The position numbers were made by a program, and so were the translations under genes. DNA of 40,757 nt. Origin: an uncultured Pelagibacteraceae bacterium. GTDB lineage: Bacteria; Pseudomonadota; Alphaproteobacteria; Pelagibacterales; Pelagibacteraceae. Where the stretch lies: positions 1 through 40,757 of the forward strand of contig CACPNO010000007.1 in NCBI GenBank assembly GCA_902635335.1, written 5' to 3'. Below, one piece after another: positions 2,323 through 17,889 of the stretch (positions within the stretch are counted from its first letter, which is position 1; the number at the start of each line of letters is the position of its first letter). The notes beneath the pieces are model-generated. The model worked only from the letters and a program-made list of their open reading frames with translations. It searched no databases and was not told the origin of the DNA.

Positions 2323-3467
2323 TTTTTTAAACAATTCGGATTAAAACCAATAAGATCATCGATGCCATCTTTTAGCTCCTTTTTTCTTTTTTGTAGATAC
2401 ACAGGATCGTTTTCTAATTTAATTCCTGTAACAATCTCCATTAAAGTATCAATTCCAAAAGCATTTTGATGAGTATGTTTTCTTGCATTTAGAGGATCAG
2501 AAATCACATTACTTTTCTTTCCATCAAATTTTCTTTTTCTGAATTTATCCCAATCTTTAATTGCTAAATTAGCAACTTTTGAGGAGTTTATTAGTTTTTT
2601 TTTGAGCTTTCTTGGTATCTTTGCACCCCATAAATCAGCTATATATACGTATCCTAAAACTATGTTTAACCCATAAGTGTGATACCATTGAGCTCTATAT
2701 CCTCTAAATGAGTTATTATTAATATATCCATCTTTAAAAATTAATTTATTAAATTCTTTAAATCTAAAATTAATTTCATTTGCAGCTAAATTTTTATCAT
2801 TAATCCAAGAGGAATAAACTAATACTGAAGTTCCTCCATTTGCCATTTGATATATTCCTGACTGCTCCTCTTGAAATTCAATGGGTTTTAAAAATTTTTC
2901 ATACATTTTTATTATATATTTATTCACAATTTTAAATTCCTCACTATTCAATTCTGATTTTAACCATACAGCTGCAATCATATAGTTTGAAAATACTCCT
3001 CGGGCAAATTCATATTGATGGAACCAGCATGGAGAATTTGGATCATTGTTTACCCAACATTTAGGTTTATTTTTTAAACCCTCAATACTTATACTGTTAT
3101 ATAATGTGTCCTCTTTTGCTAAATTAACTAATAATTTCTTAGACACATTAATACTTTCTATATCATTTTTGCTTATTGCATTGTGTATGGCCGCTAAAAA
3201 TATTTTAATTGGTCCAGTAATTTTTTCATGTTTTACTGTCATGGAATTACTATTTGCCTTCCAATCAGCTGGCCAATCATAACCAATGAGGCTCTCGACC
3301 TTTTTGACATAAAAACTCAAATCAAAAGATATATAGGGCATTAAAGGGCAAGATTCAATTTGATTTGTATAAAAATATTTTGGAAAAATAATATCTTTAG
3401 ATTTGACTTTTGCTTGTGCTGGCAAAATTAAAAACAGACCTAAAAAAATAGATAAAATTTTTTTCAC
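2319..3467 (-). CDS. Secreted alginate-lyase-like (alpha/alpha toroid) protein
   Basis: 382 residues with a Sec signal peptide (MKKILSIFLGLFLILPAQA). The mature part is mostly helical. Its segment FRGYRAQWYHTYGLN, followed by VYIADLWG, resembles the catalytic RxxxALxYHNxAL region of PL5 alginate lyases (PF05426), which supplies the catalytic Tyr/His. An earlier block, QMANGGTSVLVYSSW, sits where PL5 enzymes carry an NNHxYW-type motif; here the Asn is kept but the following residues differ. The likely role is beta-elimination of uronic-acid-rich polysaccharide in the periplasm, either catabolic or, as for AlgL, clearing mis-exported polymer. Translation appears to start at GTG overlapping the previous stop as GTGA. 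It lies between two lyase-like genes, which supports the reading. The fold is likely, the substrate unknown. Confidence 0.6.
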   Translation of the reverse strand: MKKILSIFLGLFLILPAQAKVKSKDIIFPKYFYTNQIESCPLMPYISFDLSFYVKKVESLIGYDWPADWKANSNSMTVKHEKITGPIKIFLAAIHNAISKNDIESINVSKKLLVNLAKEDTLYNSISIEGLKNKPKCWVNNDPNSPCWFHQYEFARGVFSNYMIAAVWLKSELNSEEFKIVNKYIIKMYEKFLKPIEFQEEQSGIYQMANGGTSVLVYSSWINDKNLAANEINFRFKEFNKLIFKDGYINNNSFRGYRAQWYHTYGLNIVLGYVYIADLWGAKIPRKLKKKLINSSKVANLAIKDWDKFRKRKFDGKKSNVISDPLNARKHTHQNAFGIDTLMEIVTGIKLENDPVYLQKRKKELKDGIDDLIGFNPNCLKK

Positions 3468-4384
3468 TTCAAAAATGATTTTGAAACTTCAAGTATGTGA
3501 TTAGGATTTAATTTTTTATTATTTTTTCTATATGAATAAACTTCATACTTTTCTACAGTCTGAGTTTCAAGTTTTTGACACTCAGATTTATTAAATAATT
3601 TTTCGCATTTTTTTTCAGATCTTACGCCGTCAAAAAAGACAATTCTTTGGGGCATTTTGTTTGTTTCAAATATATTTTTATATCTAGACATAAAGCTATT
3701 ATATAATCCATATCTTAAACTTTGCTCCTTACCTTTAGTTGGATGATTTGAAATACCCTTAAAATCGATCTTTAATTGTCCATCTATCCAAACTCTCATA
3801 AAACCCTTCTTGGGATCTGGATGCCAATTAGTATTAAAAATAATTTGAGTCCAATTTCCTAATAAATCCTCATTTTTTTTTAACAATACATAAGAGTCTA
3901 TAAATGTATCTCCATTTCTATTAAAAGTTAAACCGGCATGCATATGCTGAAACATTACTAATACTTTAGAAGGTTTGTGCCTTTTCCATTGTATTAAAGA
4001 CATCTTAGATGGTGCAACAGAATTGTAATCTTTTGGTAAGAAAATATAAAATTGATACCATCGCTCAGCTTTTGATGAGTATCTTTTGTAGTATAGCTCA
4101 GTTCTTTCTCTGTCATTTTCACAATCACTCCATTTTGGTTCGTAACCACATTCACCATCATTTAGTTCAAATCTAACTGATTTTTCTCCAACAATAGAAA
4201 AATCAGATACAGAAACAGGATTAATTGCATGTCTTGCGTTTAGAAAATGAAATTGTTCGGGAATAGCTCTTCCATATTTATCTTCTTTTAAAGCTTTTTT
4301 GACTTGCGAAAATTTTGTTTTAGCAAATGCAGCCCCATTGATCATAGAAAATATCATTAAAAATAATAAAAATTTTTTTATCAT
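3464..4384 (-). CDS. Secreted polysaccharide-lyase-like protein (heparin lyase I-like), subtype A
   Basis: 306 residues, with Sec signal peptide ending AAFA. The PF14099-type jelly-roll order is visible: RFELNDGEC and RTELYY (about 70-100), WYQFYIFLPKDY (about 108-120), the metal/substrate-cleft-like strand FQHMHAGL (about 145), NTNWHPDPKKGFMRVWIDG (about 190), LRYGLYN (about 220), then FFDGVRSEKKC. Family members are polysaccharide lyases that split uronate-containing glycans, but catalytic residues vary and I cannot assign them with certainty. It is closest within this window to the frameshifted gene at 1007-2322, sharing the RFE..DG.C and R[ST]E[LV] blocks. The start ATG overlaps the stop of the upstream paralogue as TAATG, implying translational coupling. 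Substrate and activity are not shown by the sequence. Confidence 0.72.
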   Translation of the reverse strand: MIKKFLLFLMIFSMINGAAFAKTKFSQVKKALKEDKYGRAIPEQFHFLNARHAINPVSVSDFSIVGEKSVRFELNDGECGYEPKWSDCENDRERTELYYKRYSSKAERWYQFYIFLPKDYNSVAPSKMSLIQWKRHKPSKVLVMFQHMHAGLTFNRNGDTFIDSYVLLKKNEDLLGNWTQIIFNTNWHPDPKKGFMRVWIDGQLKIDFKGISNHPTKGKEQSLRYGLYNSFMSRYKNIFETNKMPQRIVFFDGVRSEKKCEKLFNKSECQKLETQTVEKYEVYSYRKNNKKLNPNHILEVSKSFLK

Positions 4385-5388
4385 TAAAAAGGTCTTGGGT
4401 TTTTTGGATAACCTAAATTTTTACAAGTTGCAGATTGTGTAGCAGTTTTACACAATACAACAACCCTAACTCCTTTAAGTTGTGATTGATCTGATAGTTG
4501 ACTTATAATTTCATTGCATCCACTCCATAAATCTTCACATTTGTCAGCTTTACCAACGTTAGAATATCTAATTTTAAGATCTGGAACTTCTAAACCTTCA
4601 TTAGTTGCCTGATGCATATGGTGTCTGTATGGTCCAAATTTAAATCTAACACTTGACGCCCCTGCTAAAGTATCCCCGAAATAACTAGATCTTAAAGTGC
4701 CATCAATCCATAAATGCATAAAACCTTTTTCAGCCCATTTAATATTTAATAAAACATTAACCCACTTACCTTTTAATGGAGAAAAGTTAGGATCAAGATT
4801 AACAACATAATGTTCTGGATAAAAGTATTCAGCACCCATTTCATTTTTATACGCTGTATAGTTTGGAGAGTTAAAGTTCCATGTAAATCTATTATTTACA
4901 ATATTAAACGCTCCATCATGGGTTTTTTCTCCTTTACCGTAAAGTTTTTTAAAATCAAATAAAGATATTGTATGATTGTCAGTTCTTATATCCACTGGAA
5001 CGAAATAACCAACCCTATACCATTTTGTTTTATTTTTTTTTGTAGTTTCTTTATAAGGTTCCATGATTTGGAATCTTTGAGCATGACCTTCAATGCCAAA
5101 TCTTTTCCAATCGAGTTTATGCCCCTTATATGAATACTTTAAATCGAATTCTATTCCTTTTTCGGCAACACCCAGTCTATCCTCAAGATTGTCAAAAAAT
5201 TTATAAATATTTGGATTTTTAATATTTCTTAAAGTAAAAACCATTTTATTATCTGATTGAGCTTTTAGTACATAATGAGCAAAATCTTTTTTCTCTTTTT
5301 TATTCATATTGATATGCTTCTTTTCAGCATAAGTATTTGATGATATTAAAAATAAGATTATAAAAAATATTAAATTGATTTTTTTCAT
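4384..5388 (-). CDS. Secreted polysaccharide-lyase-like protein, subtype B
   Basis: 334 residues with Sec signal peptide (MKKINLIFFIILFLISSNTYA). It shares the C-terminal half of the fold with its neighbours: GKWVNVLLNIKWAEKGFMHLW, RFKFGPYRHH, then KIRYSNVGKADKCEDLW. The N-terminal half differs from subtype A: a KGHKLDWKRFG segment followed by QRFQIMEPY, matched in the next gene upstream by KGHPEDWDLSD and QRWEFVTKR. It therefore pairs with the 392-residue gene as a tandem duplicate. A proline-rich tail (YPKNPRPF) ends the protein, and four or more Cys near the C-terminus could form disulfides in the periplasm. The role is probably binding or cleavage of an acidic glycan, without certainty that it is an active enzyme. 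Nine bases separate it from the upstream stop. Confidence 0.65.
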   Translation of the reverse strand: MKKINLIFFIILFLISSNTYAEKKHINMNKKEKKDFAHYVLKAQSDNKMVFTLRNIKNPNIYKFFDNLEDRLGVAEKGIEFDLKYSYKGHKLDWKRFGIEGHAQRFQIMEPYKETTKKNKTKWYRVGYFVPVDIRTDNHTISLFDFKKLYGKGEKTHDGAFNIVNNRFTWNFNSPNYTAYKNEMGAEYFYPEHYVVNLDPNFSPLKGKWVNVLLNIKWAEKGFMHLWIDGTLRSSYFGDTLAGASSVRFKFGPYRHHMHQATNEGLEVPDLKIRYSNVGKADKCEDLWSGCNEIISQLSDQSQLKGVRVVVLCKTATQSATCKNLGYPKNPRPF

Positions 5389-5400
5389 TTATGTATTTTA
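5366..5400 (-). repeat. Duplicated leader, copy 1 (start of the 334-residue lyase-like gene)
   Basis: About 35 bases covering the ribosome-loading region and first codons of the gene at 4384-5388 closely match the equivalent bases at 6554-6590. The copies share AAAATA before the start and GAAAAAAATCA after it, followed by TTTAATATT. It marks the 5' end of a tandem gene duplication. Confidence 0.6.
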
Positions 5401-6576
5401 AAATTTTCCAACTTTACTTTCATAGTGGACATAGCATGCATTATTCTCTTGGTCAGAAAAATTAGTGAATTTTTCCATACACTTAGTCAAACCCTCTTTA
5501 GCTGCACCAGCTTTACTATATCCTATAAACTTTAAAAGATATTTATCGTCATTTTTATTTTTAATAATCGCTAAAAAGTTACCTTTCATTTCCTCAAATT
5601 TTATTTCTTCAGGAACAACTTTAGAAGTAATTCTCTTTATTTTTTTTGCCCCCTCAGGCATATATTCTGAATCACGGATTTTATATTTATATTTTGATCT
5701 TGCTATTTTATCTTTAGATTTGTAATCACATTTTTCTTTATCCATAATTTTTTCACAATTTTTACTTATTACATACTCTTTGATAGATAGAGTTGATGGT
5801 TCAATTAAGTCCGGGTCATAAGCTGTACTCCAATATCTATACAGACCAATTTTAAAAGCTATACCCCCAGTTTTGTCTAAAATCATGTTTGGTCCGTAAA
5901 ACTCAATTACTCTTTCATCATTTAACCACATTATAAATTCTCCATCCTCTTTTTTGGATGGTTTTATTTTAAAATAAGCGGTGCTAAATTCTTTTTTATA
6001 AGCGCTTAAACTCCCTAAATCAAATTTATACAACTTTTGTTTAAATCTATTTGCTACTGGGTCAATATCCGTCCAATAAACCTCTTCTATTTGTTTGTAA
6101 AAAAATTCCATTCTATTTGGAAGATCGTCTTCGTCGGTAGTGTACCTAATTTGCATCGAGGGATAAATTATCTCTCCTCCTTTTTTAGTTCCAACTACTT
6201 GCCAAATATTGGCACTATGATTTTGTCCCGCATTTAATTTAAAAGTATATTTTAAGTAAACTTCCTTACCAAGTTTATGATAATTTTTCCTTTTAGTAAC
6301 AAATTCCCATCTTTGAGCTTGATCATCTGAGAGATCCCAGTCTTCAGGATGCCCCTTCATACTATAATCAAGCGTAATCTCTACAGCTTCCTCATCTTCA
6401 TTGTAATTAAGTATTTTTTTATGTTTTGTCAAAGAGTCATATGCAAGACTCATTTTTTTCTTTGCTTCTTCACCAAGAATTTCTTTTTTAAATTTTTTCA
6501 AAGCATCAATTTTTTCTGCAAAAACATTTGCGTTTAAGAAAAATATTAAAGGAAATATTAAACTGATTTTTTTCAA
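5398..6576 (-). CDS. Secreted polysaccharide-lyase-like protein, subtype B, TTG start
   Basis: 392 residues with signal peptide (MKKISLIFPLIFFLNANVFA) nearly identical in its first residues to that of the next gene downstream. Matching blocks are KGHPEDWDLSD, QRWEFVTKR, FIMWLNDERVIEFYG (the GF..W.DG strand of the paralogues), AFKIGLYRY, then KEYVISKNCEKIM. A C-terminal extension of about 90 residues (from about 305, rich in Lys, Glu and containing FLAIIKNKNDDKYLLKFIGYSKAG) is absent from the other members and may be a small extra domain. No ATG fits the signal peptide; the start is TTG, aligned with the ATG of its tandem partner in a duplicated leader. Its family role is cleavage or binding of uronate glycans. 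Confidence 0.65.
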   Translation of the reverse strand: MKKISLIFPLIFFLNANVFAEKIDALKKFKKEILGEEAKKKMSLAYDSLTKHKKILNYNEDEEAVEITLDYSMKGHPEDWDLSDDQAQRWEFVTKRKNYHKLGKEVYLKYTFKLNAGQNHSANIWQVVGTKKGGEIIYPSMQIRYTTDEDDLPNRMEFFYKQIEEVYWTDIDPVANRFKQKLYKFDLGSLSAYKKEFSTAYFKIKPSKKEDGEFIMWLNDERVIEFYGPNMILDKTGGIAFKIGLYRYWSTAYDPDLIEPSTLSIKEYVISKNCEKIMDKEKCDYKSKDKIARSKYKYKIRDSEYMPEGAKKIKRITSKVVPEEIKFEEMKGNFLAIIKNKNDDKYLLKFIGYSKAGAAKEGLTKCMEKFTNFSDQENNACYVHYESKVGKF

Positions 6577-6590: not shown

Positions 6591-7596
6591 TAATTTTTAA
6601 ATTTTTTGTAGAACCATCTTTATAAGTAAATTCTACTTCTTCATTTGAAATAGATTTTATTGATGTAAAACCATCATATTCACTAATAAATTCGTTTAAT
6701 TTTTTTCTATTTTTCTTCGACATTTTTTTTCCTGGTGCGTTTACACCTACATCAATGATTAATTCAGCACCATTTAGAAAAGCATTTACATAAGCTTTTA
6801 TCGGAGGACCACAGGTCATGGCCTCTGTCATCCAAATTGGTTTATCAACATCAACACTTTTTAATAAATCAGCAAATTCATCTACCCATAGCTCTTTATC
6901 ACACTGTCCATCTGGACCGCTTATATGGTGAATATTTGCAATATCAAAATGGTCCTTAATTTTTGGCAAAGCTGATTTCCAATATTTTTTATTTTCTGGA
7001 AACATTCCTGCAGCTCCAGCCATAACGATAACTGCATCTGGTTGCTGTTCTTTAATTACTTTTGAAGAAAAATTAAAAATTTCAACAAAATCTTCCTCAC
7101 TTCCTTTAAAAAACATATCAAACTCAGGTTCATTCATCACATCCCAATATGTAATTGGTTTTGTTAATCCAGGCATATCATTTGAACCATCTCCATCATA
7201 TCTATCCACCAATTTTATAAGAAACGTTTTATAATCCTCCATTGAACATGGTTTGCTTAAATATTTTGTAAAACGTTTTCCAAATGGACTTCTGGCTTTT
7301 TTTCTTTTACAAGATTTTTGGTCCCAATTTGTATGAGGCCAGATGGTTGCTAAAATTGTTTGATTGTGTTCCTGTGCATATACAACGTATTTATCTACAT
7401 CTTCCCAAAAAAATTTACCTTTTTCACTTTCTATATGATTCCAAACGAAAGGTCCTGGATGAGGTCTTACCCATTGACCATCTTTGCCACGCATTTTTTT
7501 GTCTCTCATTTCAGTTAATTCACCAAATCTAGATTGAGAATTTGCAAAATTTGTTAACAATAAAAATGATAATAAAATTGTAAATATTCTTTTCAT
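6586..7596 (-). CDS. Secreted clan GH-A glycoside hydrolase (TIM barrel)
   Basis: 336 residues with Sec signal peptide (MKRIFTILLSFLLLTNFANS). The beta/alpha-barrel of clan GH-A is recognisable. GPFVWNHIESEKGKFFWEDVD is the typical early segment of GH39/GH42/GH10-like enzymes. YWDVMNEPE carries the acid/base Glu (about 156) after an Asn, and PIWMTEAMT carries the nucleophile Glu (about 258). The Asn-Glu-Pro plus Thr-Glu pair, about 100 residues apart, implies a retaining mechanism. The exact GH family and linkage cut cannot be told from the sequence. It is short for GH42 or GH39, so it is a catalytic-domain-only protein. The start is the ATG overlapping the DUF1501 stop as TGATG; a TTG one codon earlier is less likely. 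It would act on the same exported glycan as the lyase-like neighbours. Confidence 0.78.
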   Translation of the reverse strand: MKRIFTILLSFLLLTNFANSQSRFGELTEMRDKKMRGKDGQWVRPHPGPFVWNHIESEKGKFFWEDVDKYVVYAQEHNQTILATIWPHTNWDQKSCKRKKARSPFGKRFTKYLSKPCSMEDYKTFLIKLVDRYDGDGSNDMPGLTKPITYWDVMNEPEFDMFFKGSEEDFVEIFNFSSKVIKEQQPDAVIVMAGAAGMFPENKKYWKSALPKIKDHFDIANIHHISGPDGQCDKELWVDEFADLLKSVDVDKPIWMTEAMTCGPPIKAYVNAFLNGAELIIDVGVNAPGKKMSKKNRKKLNEFISEYDGFTSIKSISNEEVEFTYKDGSTKNLKIN

Positions 7597-8753
7597 CAAA
7601 CTTTGAATAATTTGTCAGACAAATTTACTAATTTATCTCCCCAGAAAACTTCTTTATTAATTCTTTTGAAATCAATATCAAACACAGTTGACATAGCTGA
7701 TGCATATACAGATCTAGCATCAATTGTTGAATTTAAGTCTCTTCCCTCAAATAATTCTTTTCTCTTAAGTCCTGGCCAATCGGTATAAACTTGAGTTTTT
7801 TTTAATAAACCACCTGCCATAAAAATTGCAGACCCATAGCCATGTTCTGTGCCACGTCCTCCATTTTGTTCTATAGTTCTACCAAACTCAGTTAGAGTTA
7901 AAACTAAAGTATTTTCAATCTCATTTCCTAGACCCTTCTCCAAACTTTTAAAAATAGAGTCCATTTCAATTAAACTATCTGAATGAGAACCATTCACTCC
8001 TCCTTGTGCAGCATGGGTATCAAAACCATCAACTTCAAAAACAGCAACTCTTGGACCATTTATTTTTTTTAATTCCAAACCTGCTTTTAATGCTAAAGAT
8101 GAATTCTTTCTAGACATTGATGTCCCACCACTACTCATCATTGACCTATTAGCTATTATTTCCATCATGTTAGCTAGTTCATGTTCAGATTTTTCTGCAT
8201 AAATTGATTTTAAAAGTTTTAAAAGTTCTGTTCTTGGAAGTCTTTTCTTTGATGGATAAAAATTATCATTACTTGGAATGCCTCTAAGTAGTAAAGGCAT
8301 CGGTAAAGCTAATGCAAGACCATCACCTTTTAATTCTGCCAACTTCATTCCTCTTCCTAACCAACCTGTTTTGACAGCGTAAGGAATATGACCACCTGTC
8401 TCCATTAGATTTTGTCCGTCAAAATGTGATCTTTTAGTGTATGGAATATTTGTTGCGTGAACAACTGCTCCAAGATTCTTTTGCCATAAATTATGAAAAT
8501 TTTTTAATTTAGGATGTAGAGCAAAATCAGAATCTAGTTTAATTGTTTGATCTAAAATTAAATCTTTTCTTCTTTTTTCGAAATTTTTGTCACCAATTAT
8601 TGGGACAGCGCACAAACCATCCATTCCACCTCTTAACATTATAACTACAAGGTTTTTTTTCTTGTCTGTATTTGCTAAAACTGGAAAATTAAAACCAGCC
8701 AAAAATAACGTAGTGGCTGACCCTTTTAAAAAATTTCTTCTTGATATCTTCAT
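7596..8753 (-). CDS. DUF1501 family protein, Tat-exported
   Basis: 385 residues. The N-terminus MKISRRNFLKGSATTLFLAG is a twin-arginine signal, so the protein is exported folded, probably with a bound cofactor or metal. Family landmarks are VVIMLRGGMDGLCAVPI near 35, FALHPKLKNFHNLW near 75, HFDGQNLMETG near 110, FEVDGFDTHAAQGG near 240, and LTEFGRTIEQNGGRGTEHGYGS near 290. These match DUF1501 (PF07394), which I recall as belonging to the alkaline-phosphatase/sulfatase clan; the conserved Asp and His are consistent with metal binding. Its biochemical function is not established. The ATGA overlap with the DUF1800 gene upstream repeats a pairing common across bacteria. Here the pair is embedded among glycan enzymes, so sulfate or phosphate removal from a glycan is a reasonable but unproven guess. 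Confidence 0.88.
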   Translation of the reverse strand: MKISRRNFLKGSATTLFLAGFNFPVLANTDKKKNLVVIMLRGGMDGLCAVPIIGDKNFEKRRKDLILDQTIKLDSDFALHPKLKNFHNLWQKNLGAVVHATNIPYTKRSHFDGQNLMETGGHIPYAVKTGWLGRGMKLAELKGDGLALALPMPLLLRGIPSNDNFYPSKKRLPRTELLKLLKSIYAEKSEHELANMMEIIANRSMMSSGGTSMSRKNSSLALKAGLELKKINGPRVAVFEVDGFDTHAAQGGVNGSHSDSLIEMDSIFKSLEKGLGNEIENTLVLTLTEFGRTIEQNGGRGTEHGYGSAIFMAGGLLKKTQVYTDWPGLKRKELFEGRDLNSTIDARSVYASAMSTVFDIDFKRINKEVFWGDKLVNLSDKLFKV

Positions 8754-10177
8754 GATTTAAGTGTCTCCGGTAAATTAAATAAAATAACATGTTTATGAAC
8801 AAGCTCTTTATGCTGATTTATAATTTGTAAAATTTCACTTGGATTATCATAATTTTTTTCAATCATTTCTTCATAAAATTCAGTTGTCTGTGACTTCCCT
8901 GACTTTTTGTAATAAGCCTCTCTTGCATAAACCAGCCTTCTAATTAGTAACTCTGGTGACATCCAATCCTCTGAAATATCTGACCATCCATTTGGTTGTT
9001 TTGCTAAATAAGGATGTTGTCCAAGCTCATCCATCAATCTTTCTAAGGCTCTTTGATCTTTAATCGGTTTATTTCCAAGTTGATAAAGATCCATAAATGA
9101 AGGAGATGGGATTAAATCAACATCAGCCATTTTGCTCATTTGCAATAGCCAGTTTTCTGGATTCTGAAATTTATTATATTTATCAGAATAATTAAAAGCA
9201 ACCTCTATAGCAGCTTTGTGAACCTCTGGTAAAAAACCATCTGATTTTTCCCAAGCTTTTATAATTGGTTCCATCATTTCTTCAGTCGGGTTATCTGTGA
9301 TTAAATATCTACAGAGTTTCATTGCAATAAACTTTCTGCAGGAAGGGTTGTTAACAAGATCTGTGATTGCAACTGATAAACTTTTTCTACCTCTTTTATA
9401 TTTTTTACCTAAAACCATTTTAGTACCAGGCTCATGAGCATCAGGGTTAAAATGAACATCTCCTGTCTCTAATCTTTTCTTTCCCCACTTAGGTCTCCAA
9501 CCACTCATTATATATGCCATTTGGATTACATCTTCTTGTGTATATCCACAATCTGGCGATACAGTATGAAGTTCAAGAAGCTCCCTTGCATGATTTTCAT
9601 TTACACCTTTTGTCTTCCCTTTTTCTCTTGCCCATTTAGCTTCTTGACTCTTAGGTCCTATGTTCTGTTCATTATCTAAGTGATGTATCATCGACCAACC
9701 AATAGTTGCCTCTTGGGCCATTTTTTCAAAGTTTTGGTTCATGTTAGCTCTAATAATCTCTCTTTGGTAAGCACCTGTTGTATACTGTGCTAAAAAATCT
9801 TTTTCACTGATTGCGAAATGATTTCCCCAGAAGTACCAAAGTTTTGCTAAAACTGGTGTTTCACTTTTTAATGCTTCTGAATACCTTATACAAAGTTCAA
9901 GGTTCCACCAAAATTTTTGACCAGTTAGGTGCCTTAACTTATTTTTTTCCCTTTTGTAGCCTTCTTTGTCATTTTTAAATTTTTTTCTTAGAACTTTTCT
10001 ATCCCCATAAACGTAATCTCGATAATAATTTCTAAGTTCTTTCTCTGGTAAAATTTTTCCTTTCCAAGAAAATTCGGGAATATCGTTCAATTGGTTTTTT
10101 GCCCATTCTAATGGATCTGATGGTGCCTTTTCATTAGGTCCTAAACCAAAAGCAACTTTACGATAAAAATTTTTCAT
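8750..10177 (-). CDS. DUF1800 family protein
   Basis: 475 residues and no clear signal peptide. The N-terminal FYRKVAFGLGPNEK corresponds to the RRAAFGPTP-type opening of DUF1800 (PF08811). Further family blocks are LAKLWYFWGNHFAISEKD near 125, GKTKGVNENHARELLELHTV near 190, GYTQEDVIQMAYIMSGW near 215, FNPDAHEPGTKMVLGKKY near 245, and the C-terminal LAKQPNGWSDISEDWMSPELL near 395. The function is unknown. DUF1800 genes are very often directly followed by DUF1501 genes, as here, suggesting one complex or maturation partner. No enzyme motif is obvious; the conserved NENHARE block is the best candidate for a functional site. An 18-base gap separates it from the GT2 gene upstream. Confidence 0.88.
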   Translation of the reverse strand: MKNFYRKVAFGLGPNEKAPSDPLEWAKNQLNDIPEFSWKGKILPEKELRNYYRDYVYGDRKVLRKKFKNDKEGYKREKNKLRHLTGQKFWWNLELCIRYSEALKSETPVLAKLWYFWGNHFAISEKDFLAQYTTGAYQREIIRANMNQNFEKMAQEATIGWSMIHHLDNEQNIGPKSQEAKWAREKGKTKGVNENHARELLELHTVSPDCGYTQEDVIQMAYIMSGWRPKWGKKRLETGDVHFNPDAHEPGTKMVLGKKYKRGRKSLSVAITDLVNNPSCRKFIAMKLCRYLITDNPTEEMMEPIIKAWEKSDGFLPEVHKAAIEVAFNYSDKYNKFQNPENWLLQMSKMADVDLIPSPSFMDLYQLGNKPIKDQRALERLMDELGQHPYLAKQPNGWSDISEDWMSPELLIRRLVYAREAYYKKSGKSQTTEFYEEMIEKNYDNPSEILQIINQHKELVHKHVILFNLPETLKS

Positions 10178-10195
10178 TTGATTATTTAAAATAAC

Positions 10196-11065
10196 TTATT
10201 TTATGATGTCAATATCTGAAATATTTGTTAAAGAATTATTAAACGCAGCCATATTTTCTCTTCCTGATATTTTTAAAATAACTAGACCAAAAATAATGAT
10301 TAGCACTAAAGGTATAGCTGTAATTACACTTATATATTCAGCAATAATTATTAAATATATTGCATAAAATGCTATCGATCTAAAGATTACCCCAGTTTTA
10401 AACACAGCAATAATTGCCAAAGAATGATTTATTAAATTGAAAAAACTCATCTTTGAATGACCAAAGTATCTTGAGCCTCTTATTGATGGAGATTTAATTA
10501 AATTATTTTCAGTTTTTGCCAAAGAACCAGAAAAACTACTCCAAGTTGCTTTCTCTTCAATTAATTTTTTAACAGTTTCCTTTGTAAGGCAAGTGAAATT
10601 TCCAAATTTTATAAATTTTCCAGTAAAAGTGAAAGTAATAATTTTATGTAAAAAGTAACAAATTTTAAAAATAAAACTTTCTGATCTTTTAACTCTTTCT
10701 CCAACAATAGTACTACTTGGATAATTTTTAATCTTTTCTACAAAATTTTTTATTTCTTCTGGTCTATCTTCTCCATCACCATCCATTGGAATAACATAAT
10801 CAAATTCCTCATTTTCTGAGATATGTTTTAGTCCTGATGCAATACATCTTGCGTGACCTCTATTATTTCGCATATTTATTAATTTTAGTGATTTAATATT
10901 TTTTAAATTTTTAGTTTCTAACGTTTTTTCGTCTGTTGATGCATCGTTAACTACAATTACTGAAAATGAACCATTTAAATTAGAAATATTGCTATCAATT
11001 TCTTCAATTAATTTTGATACAGATTTAAAGTCATTAAAGACTGGGATTAGAATTACTATTTTCAT
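10196..11065 (-). CDS. GT2 glycosyltransferase, polyprenyl-phosphate-sugar-synthase-like
   Basis: 289 residues. The GT-A domain opens with IVILIPVFNDFKSV and has VVNDASTD (about 40) and the metal-binding motif PMDGDGEDRPEEI (about 93), typical of GT2 enzymes of the DPM1/ArnC type that move a sugar from a nucleotide donor to polyprenyl phosphate. Two hydrophobic segments at about 218-262 should anchor it in the inner membrane. That architecture, together with a GT-C transferase two genes upstream, suggests it makes the lipid-linked sugar which the GT-C enzyme uses on the periplasmic side. The sugar is not predictable. The start ATG overlaps the stop of the 41-residue membrane protein gene as TAATG. 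Confidence 0.85.
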   Translation of the reverse strand: MKIVILIPVFNDFKSVSKLIEEIDSNISNLNGSFSVIVVNDASTDEKTLETKNLKNIKSLKLINMRNNRGHARCIASGLKHISENEEFDYVIPMDGDGEDRPEEIKNFVEKIKNYPSSTIVGERVKRSESFIFKICYFLHKIITFTFTGKFIKFGNFTCLTKETVKKLIEEKATWSSFSGSLAKTENNLIKSPSIRGSRYFGHSKMSFFNLINHSLAIIAVFKTGVIFRSIAFYAIYLIIIAEYISVITAIPLVLIIIFGLVILKISGRENMAAFNNSLTNISDIDIIK

Positions 11066-11190
11066 TAACTTACTGAGCCTATCAGTCTAAATAAAGAAGC
11101 AAAAAAACCATATCCTGAGAGTTCAATTAAAACAACAATTCCGATAATGAAAAAAAGTTTCTTGTTTTTTTGGTTTAATTGAAATTTCAT
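11065..11190 (-). CDS. Small single-span membrane protein, 41 residues
   Basis: An unrecognised small gene. After a basic N-terminus (MKFQLNQKNKKLFF) comes one hydrophobic stretch from about residue 12 to 38 (IIGIVVLIELSGYGFFASL) and a short polar tail. Its ATG overlaps the stop of the GT-C gene as ATGA, and its TAA overlaps the ATG of the GT2 gene as TAATG, so it exactly fills the space between the two glycosyltransferase genes. That double coupling is strong evidence for translation. A role as a subunit, stabiliser or flippase helper for the glycosyltransferases is inferred from position only. It is too short to be a GtrA or ArnE/ArnF protein. Confidence 0.72.
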   Translation of the reverse strand: MKFQLNQKNKKLFFIIGIVVLIELSGYGFFASLFRLIGSVS

Positions 11191-12482
11191 TTATATATTA
11201 AGCATTTCATATCTTTGTTGCACAATTGGACTTCGTTTGAACTATAAATCCATTTTGGTCTTTCTGGAAGATGGTAAGATATATTTCCTGCAATCCATTC
11301 ATTACCCTTAATGTATTCCATTTTTCCAAGGTTCTTGCCCTCAGTATCATAAAATGCTTTAGCCTGTTGAGCTAACTTTTTACCATCAAAATCAGTTCTT
11401 TTATCAGTTTGAGAGATTGAAACATAAGAATACAGAATTGGAGATAATAAGAATAATATCAAAAAGATTGAAGAAAAAGCTCTCATTTTTTCAAAATTGA
11501 TTTGTGATTTTAAAATATAAACAAATAATAAGCCAAAGCTTATATAAAAAGGCGTCATCCACATAGTTCTTATTTTTACGCCCATCGTAAATGATGTAAG
11601 AAAAATAAACAAAATTGGAATTAAATTAATTGACACTAAAAACAAAAACTTTTCATCATTTAAGCTAATATTGATTTTAAATTTTTTTATTAAAACAAAA
11701 ATCATTATTAAAAATGGTAATAATAATGCAATTTGCTTTACTAAAAATATTAAAGGATGTTTAATATGGGTAAAAAAACTTGCTTCTTCTGATCCAGTTC
11801 TAATAAGTCCATAAGCAATAGTTACATAATCATTCTCGGTTAACCAAATAATGTGTGGCAATAAAATTATAATAAATGGAACAAAAGAAACTACACACTT
11901 AAAATTCAATCTTTTTGTATAAATCATGTAAATTAAAAGAACATCTATTGCTAAACCTAAATAGACAAATAAATATTTAGATAGAAACCCAAATCCAGCG
12001 AATAGACCAAGTAATAACCAATCTAAAATTTTATTGTTCTTAATTCCTCTCCATAAATAAAAAACTGAAAGAGACCAAAAAGGAATTAAACAAACATTTA
12101 CATTAAATTCAGGTGTAGTGAAGTTATAAAAATATATTCCCTCTAATAATAAGACTGATATTAAACAATATATTTTGTTTTCGAAAAAATCTTCAGCTAA
12201 CTTAAAAATTACAATGAATGAGACTATAATACAAATTTGACTTAACAAATAATAAGCCCAGTCTTGAGGTCCAAAAATTTGGTAAAAAATTTCTGGCAGT
12301 AATGCGCTCATTGGAGGATGCTTATTAAATCCCCAGTCTAAGTTACTGCCCCAAGCCAATGCCTCGATTGTATCAAGGGGCAAATTATGATTTGTTAAAC
12401 TTGGAACTAATGTCCAGATTAATAAGTGCGCTGTAATAAAAATAAAAAACAGATTTGTAATATTCTTTTTATAAATGGCCAT
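11187..12482 (-). CDS. GT-C (GT39/ArnT-like) membrane glycosyltransferase
   Basis: 431 residues with roughly ten to twelve membrane spans. The first periplasmic loop has DTIEALAWGSNLDWGFNKHP (about 40-60), with the acidic residues and His-Pro-Pro typical of PMT/ArnT-type transferases that use a polyprenyl-phosphate sugar and act on the outer face of the inner membrane. A short soluble C-terminal tail carries MEYIKGNEWIAGNISYHLPERPKW in pieces. The acceptor could be a glycan, lipid A, or protein. I start it at ATG 12482; an in-frame TTG six codons upstream lacks support. It heads the minus-strand glycan operon, with the dksA promoter region lying divergently upstream. The small membrane protein gene overlaps its end as ATGA. 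Confidence 0.82.
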   Translation of the reverse strand: MAIYKKNITNLFFIFITAHLLIWTLVPSLTNHNLPLDTIEALAWGSNLDWGFNKHPPMSALLPEIFYQIFGPQDWAYYLLSQICIIVSFIVIFKLAEDFFENKIYCLISVLLLEGIYFYNFTTPEFNVNVCLIPFWSLSVFYLWRGIKNNKILDWLLLGLFAGFGFLSKYLFVYLGLAIDVLLIYMIYTKRLNFKCVVSFVPFIIILLPHIIWLTENDYVTIAYGLIRTGSEEASFFTHIKHPLIFLVKQIALLLPFLIMIFVLIKKFKINISLNDEKFLFLVSINLIPILFIFLTSFTMGVKIRTMWMTPFYISFGLLFVYILKSQINFEKMRAFSSIFLILFLLSPILYSYVSISQTDKRTDFDGKKLAQQAKAFYDTEGKNLGKMEYIKGNEWIAGNISYHLPERPKWIYSSNEVQLCNKDMKCLIYK

Positions 12483-12511
12483 TTTTACTAATTTATACAA
12501 TTAATCCATTC

Positions 12512-12539
12512 TTGACACTGAATAAATGATGAATATATT
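12512..12539 (+). promoter_or_regulatory. Sigma-70-type promoter of dksA
   Basis: A perfect -35 box TTGACA at 12512-12517 is followed after 16 bases by TATATT at 12534-12539 (five of six matches to TATAAT). Transcription would start near 12546, giving a leader of about 16 bases before the ATG at 12562. This rules out the in-frame ATG codons at 12526 and 12529, which lie upstream of the expected start of the RNA. Confidence 0.7.
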
Positions 12540-12561
12540 CACCAAATTCATAAATTTGAGT

Positions 12562-12978
12562 ATGGTGAAGATCTCTAAAAAATATATTCCAAAAGAAACT
12601 GAAAAGTACATGTGTGCAAAACATCTTGCATATTTCAAACAAAAATTAATGGACTGGAAAAAAGATCTTAAAAGGACAAATAACGAAGCAATATTTAATG
12701 CATCCATGGATGACAATAGTGCTTCAGCAGACATAGTCGATCAAGCAAGTTCATATACTGAAAAAAATGTTGAGATGAGATCAATAAATAGACAGATTAA
12801 ATTAATTTCTAAAATTGATGGAGCTTTGAAAAAGATACAAGATGGAACTTATGGCTTCTGTGAGGAAACCGCAGAACCAATAGGTCTTAAAAGATTAATG
12901 GCGAGACCAGTTGCAACTTTATGTATAGCAGCACAAGAAAAGCACGAAAAAGAAGAAAAAGTTTACGCTGACATTTAA
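12562..12978 (+). CDS. dksA: DksA/TraR family RNA polymerase-binding regulator
   Basis: 138 residues. DksA binds the RNA polymerase secondary channel and with ppGpp adjusts rRNA and biosynthetic promoters. The coiled-coil tip motif DxxDxA is present (DIVDQA, residues 57-62). The globular part reads GFCEETAEPIGLKRLMARP and TLCIAAQEK: of the four zinc-finger Cys of the E. coli protein, positions one and three remain (C100, C121) and positions two and four are Thr and Ala, a pattern I recall from alphaproteobacterial DksA. The start is set by the promoter at 12512-12539 and a GAG-type ribosome site just before the ATG. The stop overlaps the convergent GST gene by 4 bases. Confidence 0.9.
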   Translation: MVKISKKYIPKETEKYMCAKHLAYFKQKLMDWKKDLKRTNNEAIFNASMDDNSASADIVDQASSYTEKNVEMRSINRQIKLISKIDGALKKIQDGTYGFCEETAEPIGLKRLMARPVATLCIAAQEKHEKEEKVYADI

Positions 12979-13601
12979 GGGTAATCTATCTCAGCATCTT
13001 TATTTAATACTTTAAATCCTTTAATGACAGCAGGGCGTTTAGCTATATCAACATACCATCTAGATAAACCTTTAAAATTTTCTAATCCAATATCATGTCT
13101 TTTATGTCTTGCAATCCAAGACCATGTGGCAATGTCTGCAATAGAATACTCTTTACCAGCTAAATATTCACTTTGTGAGAGTCTTGCATCTAAATCTTCA
13201 TAAAGTTTTCTTGTAATCTTAAAATATCTTTCTTCTCCCCATTCACTTTTGCCTTGATGGTAATAATGAAACTGATGATGTTGTCCTATCATTGGACCAA
13301 TCAAACCCATTTGGGCCATTAACCATTGATTTATCTCTAGTCTGTTCTCTTCAGGATAAAACATTTTACTTTTTTCGCCCAAATAAATCAAAATCGCACC
13401 TGATTCGAAGACTGATTTATTATTTTCGTGATCTGTAATTACTGGAATTTTATTAAAAGGACTAATTTTTTTGAATTCTGGTTTATGTTGTTCACCTTCA
13501 CTTAGGTTGACTTTTGTTATTTTATATTCAAGATTTATCTCCTCAAGCATTATACTAATTTTCCAACCATTTGGTGTATCAGCTGTAAATAGCTCAATCA
13601 C
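12975..13601 (-). CDS. Glutathione S-transferase family protein (YfcG/YghU-like)
   Basis: 208 residues. N-terminal thioredoxin-fold domain with FTADTPNGWKISIMLEE and SPFNKIPVI, then FESGAILIYLGEK, followed by an all-helical C-terminal domain with YSIADIATWSWIARH. The Thr-Pro-Asn-Gly entry motif is that of nu-class GSTs such as YfcG, which act as glutathione-dependent disulfide-bond reductases or peroxidases rather than classical conjugating enzymes. It is the third gene of a ferredoxin-reductase-GST set and starts at GTG within a TAGTG overlap with the reductase stop. This suggests coupled expression and a shared redox role. The physiological substrate is unknown. Confidence 0.85.
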   Translation of the reverse strand: MIELFTADTPNGWKISIMLEEINLEYKITKVNLSEGEQHKPEFKKISPFNKIPVITDHENNKSVFESGAILIYLGEKSKMFYPEENRLEINQWLMAQMGLIGPMIGQHHQFHYYHQGKSEWGEERYFKITRKLYEDLDARLSQSEYLAGKEYSIADIATWSWIARHKRHDIGLENFKGLSRWYVDIAKRPAVIKGFKVLNKDAEIDYP

Positions 13602-14613
13602 TATTTTACGCCCAATCTGTCTTTAATAGTATTAGATGCCGTTGTAAATTCAAATCTATATTTTTCGTTCGGTCTTGCGTACTTGAAACAGCCTCTGGCA
13701 GCTAAAGCACCTTCATGAAAACCTGATAAAATTAATTTAAGTTTTCCTGGGTAAGTACATATATCACCGATAGCAAATATACCTTTCTTATTAGTTTCAA
13801 AGTTTTCAGTATTAACTGGGATTGCTTTTTTATCTAAATTAAGGCCCCATTCTGCTATTGGTCCAAGTTGCATTATCAAACCAAAAAAACCTAAAACATA
13901 ATCTGCTTTCAATATTTTACTCTCTCCTTCTTCATTTTTAATTTCTACTTCTTCTAAAGATCCATTTCCTTTGACATCCTTAATTGAGTATTTAGTAAAT
14001 AAATTAATTATATTTTTTTTACTGAGTTCTTTAATTTTTTGAACACTTGCAGGTGCGCCTCTAAACTCATCTCTTCTGTGTATTAGCGAGACCTTAGAAA
14101 TGTTAGAAAGCTCTATCGCCCAATCAAGAGCACTATCTCCACCGCCAAATATAGCTACAAATTTGTCTTTAAAAATTGTTTTGTCTTTAATTGAATACAA
14201 AACTGAGGTTCCATCAAACTTTTCTGCACTTTTTGTAGGAAACTTTCTAGGTTCAAATGACCCAACACCTCCAGCAATTACAACATTTGGTGTTTTAAAT
14301 TTTTTTCCGTTAGTTGTTTTAACAATCCAATTACCGTTTTCATTGATAATTTCTTGTACTCTGTCATTTAAATGAAAATTAAATTTGAATGGTTTAATTT
14401 GTTCTATTAAATTATTTGTAAGTTCTTCTCCGGTACACTTTGGAACTGCGGGAATATCATAAATTGGTTTATCTGGATAAAGTTCTATACATTGACCACC
14501 AATTTTATCTAAGTTATCAACTATTTCACACGTTAATCCAATAATACCAAGTTGATGCGCACAAAATAATCCTGTGGGACCTGCACCAACTATAACAGCA
14601 TCAGTTTTGATCA

Positions 14614-14614
<1 letters not shown>
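13601..14614 (-). CDS. Ferredoxin-NADP reductase, thioredoxin-reductase-like type
   Basis: 337 residues. The FAD-binding GAGPTG is at about 11-16, GGQCIELYPDKPIYDIP near 40-55, the NADPH-binding GGGDSALDWA near 155, HRRDEFRGAP near 178, and the second FAD motif GIFAIGDICTYPGK near 280. The CxxC active site of thioredoxin reductase is absent, as in the YumC-type ferredoxin/flavodoxin-NADP reductases. It would transfer electrons between NADPH and a ferredoxin; the adjacent 2Fe-2S ferredoxin gene, overlapping as TAATG, is the obvious partner. The downstream GST joins the same transcript. It could alternatively be annotated simply as a thioredoxin-reductase-like protein. Confidence 0.87.
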
Positions 14615-14990
<376 letters not shown>

Positions 14991-15011
14991 ATATTTCGTA
15001 ACTAATTGTTA

Positions 15012-15776
15012 CTACGCTCTTCTTGTAGAGTTAGATACTGCACAAGACCAGATAATTAAACCAAATGCGATTTTATTAACAAAGTCTGCTAAGTTATAGA
15101 TAACGTTTAACGCGTTACCATCTATTCCACCTGTTAGGTAACCAAAAATGTAACCTAGTGGGTAAATAGCCCAACCTACAGTAACAATCATTCTTAAAGC
15201 TCCAAATGCAGTTACTAAAGATTTATTTCCAGATTTAGCAGCAACTTTTCCTGCTTCTCCTGAAAAGATTTCATAAAGAATGTAAATCCATCCAGCCATA
15301 CCGATTATGAAACCTAGTGTAGCGTTGATGAATCCAGCTTCTCCAAGATATCCACCTATTAACATAACTAGTGAACCGATTAAGATTCTCCAGAATATGT
15401 TTGTGTCAACTTTTCTTACTGCTGAAAGAATTAAGTAAAATTCTACTAGCTGTAGTGGTACAGTAATTAACCAGTCAATGTATCTGTAAACAGTTGGAGT
15501 ATCACCTGTTTCGATCCAAACCGCTCTCATATACATATAGTGAATAAATGCTATACCTGTTACTAATCCAGCTACGTTTACTGATTTTCTCCATTGTGAA
15601 CTGACATTAGCCTGTTCCATAAAGAAAAACGCTGTAGCTGCTAACATACCCATTGATATTAACCAAAACGAAATACCTACGAAATCGTCTGTAGCTAAAA
15701 AGGCTGTTGCTGCGTTAGCTGCTGTAGTTGCTCCGAAAAGCACTGCCGCTAATGCTAACATTTTCATTGTCTTCAT
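15012..15776 (-). CDS. Proteorhodopsin, blue-light-tuned proton pump
   Basis: 254 residues, seven membrane helices after a cleavable-looking leader (to about ATA, residue 24). Key residues in this numbering, which runs 4 ahead of the reference green proteorhodopsin: His79, Arg98, proton acceptor Asp101 (RYIDW), proton donor Glu112, and retinal Schiff-base Lys235 (ADFVNKIAFG). The spectral tuning site, reference position 105, is Gln109 in TVPLQLVEF, which indicates blue absorption. All residues for outward proton pumping are present. The start is ATG 15776, preceded by GAGGGAG with 6 bases of spacing; the ATG at 15791 overlaps that ribosome site and is rejected. No retinal-synthesis genes are nearby. 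A strong terminator follows. Confidence 0.97.
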   Translation of the reverse strand: MKTMKMLALAAVLFGATTAANAATAFLATDDFVGISFWLISMGMLAATAFFFMEQANVSSQWRKSVNVAGLVTGIAFIHYMYMRAVWIETGDTPTVYRYIDWLITVPLQLVEFYLILSAVRKVDTNIFWRILIGSLVMLIGGYLGEAGFINATLGFIIGMAGWIYILYEIFSGEAGKVAAKSGNKSLVTAFGALRMIVTVGWAIYPLGYIFGYLTGGIDGNALNVIYNLADFVNKIAFGLIIWSCAVSNSTRRA

Positions 15777-15782
15777 AAAAAA

Positions 15783-15789
15783 CTCCCTC
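15783..15789 (-). promoter_or_regulatory. Ribosome binding site of proteorhodopsin
   Basis: GAGGGAG on the minus strand, 6 bases before the ATG at 15776. It is the strongest Shine-Dalgarno sequence noticed in the window, where most genes rely on stop/start overlaps or AT-rich leaders, and it fits a highly expressed gene. It decides the start codon. Confidence 0.85.
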
Positions 15790-15806
15790 ATAGTTAGTTT
15801 TTTTAT

Positions 15807-15824
15807 TAGTTTAAATTTAAACTA
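15807..15824. promoter_or_regulatory. 18-base perfect palindrome in the proteorhodopsin leader
   Basis: TAGTTTAAATTTAAACTA is a perfect palindrome 30 to 48 bases upstream of the proteorhodopsin ATG. It may be an operator for a dimeric regulator. As RNA it could only form a hairpin of A-U pairs with a very tight loop, so DNA binding is the more likely use. AT-rich palindromes also arise by chance. Confidence 0.4.
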
Positions 15825-15844
15825 CAGACTAATCTAATGATTAG

Positions 15845-15856
15845 CCTAAAGTTAGG
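15845..15856. promoter_or_regulatory. Short inverted repeat in the proteorhodopsin promoter spacer
   Basis: CCTAAAGTTAGG: two 5-base arms around a 2-base centre, lying between the proposed -35 and -10 boxes of the proteorhodopsin promoter. It is a possible repressor or activator site, but short. Confidence 0.3.
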
Positions 15857-15990
15857 GTTAGATAGCAAAAAAATTTACTTTATTGAAGAGTTTTTGACCT
15901 CTAAAAAGTATTGATTTTACTTACTTTGTAAAATTAAATACAACCTGTTACATAAAATCATTATAAAAGTGAGTCAAAAAACAAATCACT

Positions 15991-17889
15991 ATGAAAAATA
16001 GTTTTAACAAAATTTATCAAGAATCTATTCAAAATCCCGAGGAATTTTGGAAAAATGTATCTGATGATGTCTTCTGGTTTAAAAAACCTACTAATATTTT
16101 AAACAAATCTAATCCTCCATTTTATAAATGGTTTGAAGATGGCGTTACAAACACCTGTTACAACGCTATTGATGTTCATATTGATAAAGGTAACGGTGAG
16201 AAGGCTGCTTTAATTTATGATAGCCCTATAACTAATAGTAAAGCAAAGTATACATACAATCAATTAAGAGAAAAAATATCAAAATTCGCTGGAGCACTTG
16301 ATAATCAAGGTATTAAAAAAGGTGACAGAGTAATAATTTATATGCCTATGATACCTGAGGCAGTTATTGCAATGCTTGCTTGTGGGAGGATTGGTGCAAT
16401 ACACTCGGTTGTCTTTGGTGGATTTGCTTCAAATGAATTAGCAAGCAGAATTGACGATAGTAAAGCTAAAATTTTAATTACCGCATCCTGTGGGTTTGAA
16501 CCTGGACGAACTGTTGAATATAGACCTTTAGTTGATAGAGCATTAAAGCTTTCAAAACATAAAGTTGAAAAAGTAATTTTCTTTCAAAGGAAAGATAACG
16601 AAGTAAAACTCAACTCTCCACTTGAAATCAGCTGGGATGAAGCACTTGTTAATGCCAAAAATAAAGATTGTGTTGAGATTGGAGCAAATGAATTTGCTTA
16701 CATTTTATACACTTCAGGAACAACAGGAATACCGAAAGGAATAGTTAGAGATATAGGAGGTCATATAGTTGCTCTTAAATGGACTATGAAAAATATTTAT
16801 AATATTGACGAGAATGATGTTTGGTGGTCAGCAAGTGATATTGGTTGGATCGTAGGGCATTCATACATTGTTTATGCTCCATTGTTCAAAGGATGTACTA
16901 CAGTTCTATTTGAAGGAAAACCAGTGGGAACTCCTGATGCAGGAGTTTTTTGGAGAATAATTTCTGAATATAAAATTAAATCTTTATTCACTGCTCCAAC
17001 AGCATTTAGAGCGATCAAAAAAGAGGACCCTGATGGAAAGTTTTTTTCAAAGTATGATTTGAGTTCATTCGAGTCTTTATTTTTAGCTGGAGAAAGAGCT
17101 GATCCTGATACAATAAAATGGGCTGAAAATCTTTTAAATGTTCCAGTTATAGATCACTGGTGGCAAACAGAAACTAGTTGGGCGATTAGTTCAAATTGTA
17201 CTGGGATAGAAATGCAAAAAACTAAGTATGGTTCAGCATGTAAAGCAGTTCCAGGTTATGATGTAAAAATAATTAAACCAGATCATTCAATTGCAGAACC
17301 TAATGAGATGGGAGATATAGTTGTAAAATTACCATTACCACCAGGAACATTTCCAACACTTTGGAATGCTGATAAGAGATACAAAGAAAATTATATGACT
17401 AATTATGAGGGTTACTATCAAACCTATGATGCAGGTCACATAGATGAAGATGGATACATATGGATTATGTCACGGACAGATGACATAATTAATGTTGCTG
17501 GTCATAGATTATCGACAGGTGCAATTGAGGAAGTTTTATCTGAACATCAATCAGTTGCTGAGTGTGCCGTTCTTGGAATTGCGGATAAATTAAAAGGACA
17601 ATTGCCAATTGGTTTAGTTGTTTTAAAATCTGGAGTTGAAAAAGATAATGAAACAATTTCAAAAGAATGTATTCAAATGGTTAGAAATAAAATTGGACCA
17701 GTGGCTGCGTTTAAAGTTGTTATAGTTATTAAAAGATTACCTAAAACAAGATCAGGAAAAATATTGAGAGGAACTATTAGAAAAATTGCTGACAAGGAAG
17801 ATTACAAAATGCCAGCAACAATCGATGATCCAGCAATTTTAGATGAGATCACACAAAGTTTAATAGATAACAATATTCTCACCAGATAG
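15991..17889 (+). CDS. prpE: Propionyl-CoA synthetase (acyl-CoA synthetase family)
   Basis: 632 residues. ATP-dependent acyl-CoA ligase forming propionyl-CoA or acetyl-CoA through an acyl-adenylate. The AMP-binding P-loop is YTSGTTGIPKGIVRD followed by GGHIVALKW, and that Arg-Asp-x-Gly-Gly-His tail is the mark of the PrpE/ACSS3 branch rather than acetyl-CoA synthetase. Further motifs are SVVFGGFAS, WWSASDIGWIVGHSY, HWWQTETSWAI, SRTDDIINVAGHRLSTG, and the C-terminal TRSGKILRGTIRK, whose Lys is the catalytic and acetylation-regulated residue. The length is normal. It is monocistronic, divergent from proteorhodopsin and convergent with dihydroorotase, with 6 bases between stops. Distinguishing propionate from acetate preference needs biochemistry. 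Confidence 0.88.
   Translation: MKNSFNKIYQESIQNPEEFWKNVSDDVFWFKKPTNILNKSNPPFYKWFEDGVTNTCYNAIDVHIDKGNGEKAALIYDSPITNSKAKYTYNQLREKISKFAGALDNQGIKKGDRVIIYMPMIPEAVIAMLACGRIGAIHSVVFGGFASNELASRIDDSKAKILITASCGFEPGRTVEYRPLVDRALKLSKHKVEKVIFFQRKDNEVKLNSPLEISWDEALVNAKNKDCVEIGANEFAYILYTSGTTGIPKGIVRDIGGHIVALKWTMKNIYNIDENDVWWSASDIGWIVGHSYIVYAPLFKGCTTVLFEGKPVGTPDAGVFWRIISEYKIKSLFTAPTAFRAIKKEDPDGKFFSKYDLSSFESLFLAGERADPDTIKWAENLLNVPVIDHWWQTETSWAISSNCTGIEMQKTKYGSACKAVPGYDVKIIKPDHSIAEPNEMGDIVVKLPLPPGTFPTLWNADKRYKENYMTNYEGYYQTYDAGHIDEDGYIWIMSRTDDIINVAGHRLSTGAIEEVLSEHQSVAECAVLGIADKLKGQLPIGLVVLKSGVEKDNETISKECIQMVRNKIGPVAAFKVVIVIKRLPKTRSGKILRGTIRKIADKEDYKMPATIDDPAILDEITQSLIDNNILTR

Follow-up and report, generated by a model that had tools for sequence, protein, structure and literature searches.

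Gene arrangement around ORF-B

The window analyzed here, a stretch of 40,757 nucleotides from an uncultured Pelagibacteraceae bacterium whose genome is 64% complete, carries a short frame, ORF-B, wedged between two glycosyltransferase genes on the minus strand. Upstream lies the gene for a GT-C type glycosyltransferase (11187..12500; PMT_2, PF13231, E 4.9e-31), and downstream that for a GT2 polyprenyl-phosphate glycosyltransferase resembling ArnC and GtrB (10196..11065; Glycos_transf_2, PF00535, E 5e-15). ORF-B itself (11065..11190) is read from 11190 to 11065, from ATG AAA to TAA, and encodes a protein of 41 residues, MKFQLNQKNKKLFFIIGIVVLIELSGYGFFASLFRLIGSVS. At the start of ORF-B, ATG overlaps the GT-C stop codon TGA as ATGA, and its TAA has one base in common with the ATG of GT2, forming TAATG. 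The frame thus exactly fills the gap with no spare bases, as the initial annotation had noted, and the basic N terminus and single hydrophobic span described there are likewise present in the sequence. No terminator-like site was found in window 10000-12700, where promoter-like sites are no more frequent than in shuffled sequences.

Divergently from GT-C, a gene for a DksA/TraR-type protein (12526..12978, plus strand) converges on a glutathione S-transferase-like (GST) gene (12975..13601, minus strand), followed by genes for a pyridine-nucleotide oxidoreductase (FNR), a ferredoxin, and a rhodopsin (PF01036). The dksA/GST junction is closed in the window, with neither ORF-B nor its companion small protein ORF-A (described below) inside. 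This locus, from rhodopsin through to dksA, spans window 12526-15791, about 4 kb from ORF-B, and the examined loci of six genera preserve, in varying form, the cluster of FNR, GST, dksA, GT-C, and GT2. On the opposite side, GT2 is followed by two adjoining genes (window 7596-10177), one for a DUF1800 protein and the other for a DUF1501 protein that weakly matches a Tat signal; this pair occurs near GT2 in some relatives and is absent there in others. Still further away, three consecutive frames (window 3464-6576) match the polysaccharide lyase model PF14099, one of them slightly under the cut-off; three in a row seems unusual in a streamlined genome.

ORF-B encodes a conserved small membrane protein

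Taken by itself, the frame is weak evidence for a gene, because a stop-free run of 40 codons has a probability of about 3% at the local base composition, and a fortuitous frame, or a spacer that is not translated, could be this long. However, the same protein recurs across many genomic contexts, and over its 27 core codons dN/dS is 0.074 among 11 window-clade sequences, 0.144 among 51 sequences from glycosyltransferase (GT) clusters, and 0.125 among 78 from dksA/GST junctions, compared with 0.5 to 4.6 in the other two frames over the same bases. Frame +1 is interrupted by stops in every row of these three sets, and frame +2 in 10 of 11, 30 of 51, and 61 of 78 rows, respectively. Conservation across genomes and low dN/dS together settle the coding status; sequence comparison therefore confirms ORF-B as a genuine protein-coding gene under strong purifying selection, and a chance frame, which this conservation contradicts, is rejected as exceedingly improbable.

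Family members are 31-42 residues long, with I22, E23, S25, G26, and G28 invariant in an alignment of 30 chosen rows. An AlphaFold2 model (mean pLDDT 77.5, pTM 0.38) predicts a helix at residues 7-24, a break at 25-27, and a second helix at 28-40. Profile searches with the 30 rows gave best E values of 0.04 in Pfam and 0.016 in NCBIfam, with any one family matched by at most three rows; we judged these weak, scattered matches to be due to chance, and the window protein itself has no Pfam match. A sequence search of the PDB returned xanthan lyases alone (E 0.98, an 11-residue match also judged chance), and Foldseek found no match to the model, although little would be expected from one short broken helix. 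No homolog was confirmed in viral contigs or found in a phage collection or, with a consensus-like query, in a plasmid collection, and PHROGs gave only weak matches (best E 0.0035, to a family matched by 5 of 30 rows). We consequently rejected a phage- or plasmid-borne origin. No report on the family was found in the open-access literature searched.

At fewer than 50 residues and with one hydrophobic helix, ORF-B fits the small single-pass membrane protein class in length and helix number. This class includes YohP and CydX, which act as small membrane protein subunits or regulators. TatA-like peptides consist of a helix, a hinge, and an amphipathic helix, a layout that the predicted helix, glycine-containing break, and second short helix of ORF-B resemble, but no TatA model is among the Pfam and NCBIfam matches listed. 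By a published account (PMC12719787), members of the class such as AcrZ and MgtS are, like ORF-B, shorter than 50 residues, with one membrane helix, a positively charged flank, and no catalytic motif. ORF-B differs from all these proteins in having no convincing Pfam or NCBIfam match, in its changing gene place, and in the recurrence of a second tiny protein, ORF-A. Our verdict is that ORF-B defines a new orphan family within a kind already established, the small membrane proteins.

Distribution and genomic position of ORF-B

The ORF-B profile matched 136 of 201 genomes of the window genus, each once, in a survey that, as for ORF-A, covered mostly incomplete genomes; of the 29 with a completeness of 90% or more, 22 carry it. 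Across the order (197 genomes, 10 genera), 106 genomes have ORF-B, comprising 94 of the window genus (g1) and 12 of a sister genus (g8), and when 385 genomes were drawn from across the class (276 genera), only two matched, both of them in the window genus. As far as searched, the family thus appears to be confined to two marine Pelagibacteraceae genera.

To compare positions, we used the regions fetched for 135 genomes (the 136 with a match, minus the window's own), classed by the nearest tblastn matches of window proteins. ORF-B lies in the GT cluster in 51 loci, at the dksA/GST junction in 78, and elsewhere in 6. A set of the 80 most window-like loci was kept out of these counts. In one analysis of gene order in 80 loci, 13 left unlabeled by the automatic procedure were assigned by hand, five to the GT cluster near contig ends and eight to dksA/GST. 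Names such as agmatinase-, adenosine-deaminase-, SelO-, PhyH-, NnrU-, MOSC-, CcdA-, and thioredoxin-reductase-like, and TRAP, were given to neighboring genes by eye from sequence.

Within the 51 GT-cluster loci, ORF-B adjoins GT2 in 48 and in the other three follows GT-C but is separated from GT2 by other genes. In 22 loci, an ATGA overlap joins its start to the GT-C stop, and the GT2 start falls -3 to +9 bases from its stop in 48. Unrelated genes intervene among GT-C, ORF-B, and GT2 in four genomes; in loci L174, L210, L213, and L224, the intervening frames include adenosine-deaminase-like, SelO-like, SDR, PhyH-like, and NnrU-like ones, all named by eye. At the dksA/GST junction, ORF-B adjoins GST in 69 of the 78 loci and dksA in nine, where GST was not seen beside it; in another 9 of the 78, further genes lie between dksA and ORF-B, with dksA 1-7 kb away.

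The sister genus presents a different picture. Nine loci were fetched there, and none has a GT-C, GT2, or dksA match within the 5 kb flanks of ORF-B, which in seven of them (L337, L339-L343, and L345) lies directly downstream of a tRNA-Leu gene. There, ORF-B starts just after tRNA-Leu(gag) on the same strand and may hence be co-transcribed with the tRNA. In three regions examined in this genus (L355, L363, and L364), ORF-B lies about 8 kb from GT-C.

We built trees from five neighboring proteins, one with 96 rows and a second with 66 rows that included extra loci; both come from quick searches in which SH-aLRT was the only measure of support, and some branches fall under 95%. In these trees, several basal branches of the genus carry the GT-cluster arrangement; the dksA/GST arrangement belongs to a single derived clade, inside which ORF-B is absent several separate times. 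From this placement, the GT cluster is probably the older place of ORF-B within the genus, later left. The data support a tight coupling of ORF-B to its two glycosyltransferase neighbors in the window, and a slightly varied form of it on several of the genus's deep branches.

Repeated absence marks ORF-B as dispensable, a feature that, along with its shortness, its one helix, and the positive charges on its flanks, would suit a membrane-active stress or dormancy peptide of the class covered in PMC12719787, like YohP or the type I toxins, perhaps acting with ORF-A. Yet the invariant buried Glu and SG-x-G motif, combined with strong purifying selection, indicate specific contacts. ORF-B is also found as a single match per genome, and Rfam, by which alone antisense RNA was covered, gave no family at gathering score in window 8700-16000. 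We regard such a peptide as improbable.

ORF-B and the glycosyltransferase pair

The initial annotation proposed that the small protein is a subunit coupling the polyprenyl-phosphate-sugar synthase to the transferase. The real small membrane protein gene and its coupling in the window and on deep branches bear out one part of this proposal; the dedicated subunit does not hold up. Such a subunit should be present wherever both enzymes are and be encoded with them, but ORF-B lies outside the GT cluster in 84 of 135 loci, and many genomes conserve both neighbors and lack the frame, the very observation that had been named as telling against the idea.

GT-C occurs in 130 of the 197 order genomes, from six genera, which amounts to 130 of 144 family members. 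An ORF-B match is missing in 25 of these 130, of which eight are single-contig assemblies and three (G274, G323, and G347) are uninformative because the contig ends inside GT-C. GT-C and GT2 without ORF-B are found in genera g5, g6, g7, and g9 and in 14 genomes of the window genus. In L303-L307 and L351-L353, GT-C and GT2 are intact with ORF-B absent from the region; L356-L359, L361, and L362 likewise have both enzymes without ORF-B, and dksA is present in all of these loci. A single 12.7-bit ORF-B match in L356, antisense to GST, was judged chance. Among the 63 dksA/GST-type loci with both enzymes, GT2 starts at most 60 bases from the GT-C stop, with no ORF-B, in 59, and about 1 kb separates the two genes in the remaining four.

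The GT2 model (pLDDT 83.6) matches structures of ArnC, GtrB, and DPMS (best PDB match 9asc, E 3.6e-15, TM-score 0.60 by query length) and includes two C-terminal membrane helices of its own, at residues 223-244 and 247-268, so the enzyme would need no membrane anchor. For GT-C, phmmer found no PDB match at E 0.01. Since the enzymes are kept without ORF-B and GT2 brings its own membrane helices, the pair does not appear to need ORF-B, and a dedicated subunit of GT2 and GT-C is not supported by these comparisons.

Known small components of related systems offer a comparison. The neighbors in the window, an ArnC/GtrB-like GT2 and a PMT_2 GT-C, recall the ArnC/ArnT and GtrA/GtrB/GtrC systems, whose third component, GtrA or ArnE/F, is a small flippase with four helices and more than 100 residues. 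ORF-B, at 41 residues with one membrane span and no Pfam match, was rejected as such a flippase. DPM3 and OST4 are tiny subunits of eukaryotic dolichol-sugar enzymes and constant partners of these, and ORF-B resembles them in its tiny size, its helical structure, and its GT2 or GT-C enzyme neighbors; unlike them, it is missing in 25 of 130 GT-C genomes and often located elsewhere. A DPM3-like anchoring role was discarded, given the membrane helices of GT2 itself.

We also dropped the joint absence of GT-C and ORF-B as evidence for a glycosyltransferase role, as it looks like assembly loss. Thirteen of the 14 family members without GT-C also lack ORF-B, but in nine of the 14 FNR is unmatched as well, indicating that the whole region is missing, and in the other five the contig ends here (G004, G338, and G249 in L347, L360, and L365; G331 and G306 with a partial FNR at the contig end).

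A looser role, as an accessory subunit or activator aiding the predicted handover of polyprenyl-phosphate-sugar from synthase to transferase, must still be weighed. The apparently older place of ORF-B in the GT cluster leaves room for it, as do the overlapping or near-overlapping junctions on several branches and the distance of about 8 kb to GT-C in the three sister-genus regions. GT-C is further present in 105 of 106 ORF-B genomes, the exception being G338, where the contig stops at dksA, but this argument is weakened by the prevalence of GT-C itself across the family. Set against the location of ORF-B outside the cluster in most relatives, the GT-C genomes that lack it, the unrelated genes inserted in four genomes, the self-sufficient membrane attachment of GT2, and the coupling of ORF-B to ORF-A in most loci outside the cluster, we consider an accessory role of this kind unlikely, though worth keeping in mind.

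ORF-A, a recurring companion of ORF-B

ORF-A is a basic, Tyr/Trp-rich hydrophobic protein of about 36-50 residues (about 38-50 at dksA/GST), for which Pfam/NCBIfam-type profile searches gave a best E of 0.041, judged chance. It is encoded directly upstream of ORF-B in 75 of 78 dksA/GST loci, 4 of 6 other loci, and none of the 51 GT-cluster loci; of the 84 loci that lie outside the GT cluster, 79 therefore have it within a few bases upstream. The pair occurs near a thioredoxin-reductase-like gene in G232 and four other genomes, and three of these five, placed on the tree, fall on two separate branches. On the tree, the pair has two distinct locations, one of which recurs on a second, separate branch.

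A narrow profile detected ORF-A in 111 of 201 genomes of the genus, namely 101 of the 136 with ORF-B and 10 of the 65 without, leaving 35 with ORF-B but not ORF-A. Five of the genomes with ORF-A alone (G008, G083, G158, G165, and G207) have very similar GT2 scores, which suggested that they are one lineage. Several ORF-A sequences are short and diverged and are recognized only by a broad profile. Applied to 35 hand-picked genomes, three of which (G165, G232, and G301) also contributed rows to it, this profile found ORF-A in 18 of 20 genomes with ORF-B and in 1 of 15 without (G165), a co-occurrence with a Fisher p of 7e-7 when relatedness is ignored. The two ORF-B genomes without a hit are the incomplete window genome and G061, and three more genomes without ORF-B gave weak hits (E 0.03-0.09).

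In 16 of the 18 genomes with both, the two genes are not adjacent. ORF-A of the window clade has diverged and is seen by the broad profile only, with E values of 1e-5 to 1e-7 to a profile that includes similar rows; in three of its six loci, the gene directly after it is the agmatinase-like one that it also precedes in better-scoring genomes. Among ten fetched loci of ORF-A without adjoining ORF-B, five (L327-L330 and L335) likewise lie directly before an agmatinase-like gene. More generally, ORF-A changes place (L168-L302 junctions, L327-L336, and L381-L399), appearing before the agmatinase-like gene, beside a CcdA-like gene, or coupled to ORF-B, with contexts named by eye, and between rhodopsin and ferredoxin genes in two genomes of the sister genus.

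The nearness of the two genes could alternatively be incidental, arising from insertion hotspots that they share within a streamlined genome, with ORF-B serving an independent housekeeping partner. The accessible part of a 2007 study describes two insertions/deletions of genes located in the ferredoxin/GST/DksA region, downstream of the proteorhodopsin gene, and does not name the small ORF-A and ORF-B genes (PMC2217521). Such indels would favor a hotspot, as would the other genes taken up by the dksA/GST and GT junctions and the ten genomes with ORF-A alone. Nevertheless, the tight spacing in 79 of 84 loci and the co-occurrence of the two proteins even when their genes are apart count against it, and we think this explanation rather unlikely. 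On these genomic patterns, ORF-A is a better candidate partner for ORF-B than the GT2/GT-C pair.

Discussion

Four properties of ORF-B are established here: coding selection, single copy, a changing genomic place, and a recurring companion, ORF-A. We tentatively favor a reading in which ORF-B is one half of a two-peptide accessory module, with ORF-A as the other half, serving a larger membrane complex. We infer this function from sequence patterns and give it somewhat less than an even chance. Against it stand the ten genomes with ORF-A but not ORF-B and the 35 with the reverse under the narrow profile, and where the two genes adjoin, their joint loss may represent a single deletion.

In the proposed model, ORF-A and ORF-B would be two parts of one small inner-membrane module. 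ORF-B would cross the membrane once with its N terminus inside and break at the invariant E-x-S-G-x-G, with the short helix then running along the membrane surface. Its buried Glu and small residues could pack against ORF-A, against a larger membrane complex, or against both. That complex, respiratory or transport in nature, would be encoded elsewhere and be stabilized or tuned by the pair. Such behavior would be like that of known small membrane proteins, which, according to PMC12719787, often act through binding other membrane proteins. ORF-B in the window would then ride in the glycosyltransferase operon for coupled translation or expression, rather than to serve those enzymes.

A fuller version of this scenario is more speculative, and we offer it as a possibility that is more doubtful than probable: a two-peptide membrane complex specific to the Pelagibacteraceae, gained before the split of the two genera, with its genes apart at the base and later paired on separate branches, that tunes a core energy or transport complex.

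The case also advises caution in inferring function from a single overlapping operon, as the overlap is real but the link to the neighbors fails across relatives. What draws attention to the ORF-B family is that its position changes and that it pairs with ORF-A. In the streamlined genomes of SAR11, a gene without a use ought to disappear, yet ORF-B is kept under selection while its position shifts by lineage. ORF-A and ORF-B therefore provide a concrete pair for asking what role tiny membrane proteins have in oligotrophs, and, if the fuller scenario is true, the module would tune a core complex of the ocean's most abundant heterotrophs.
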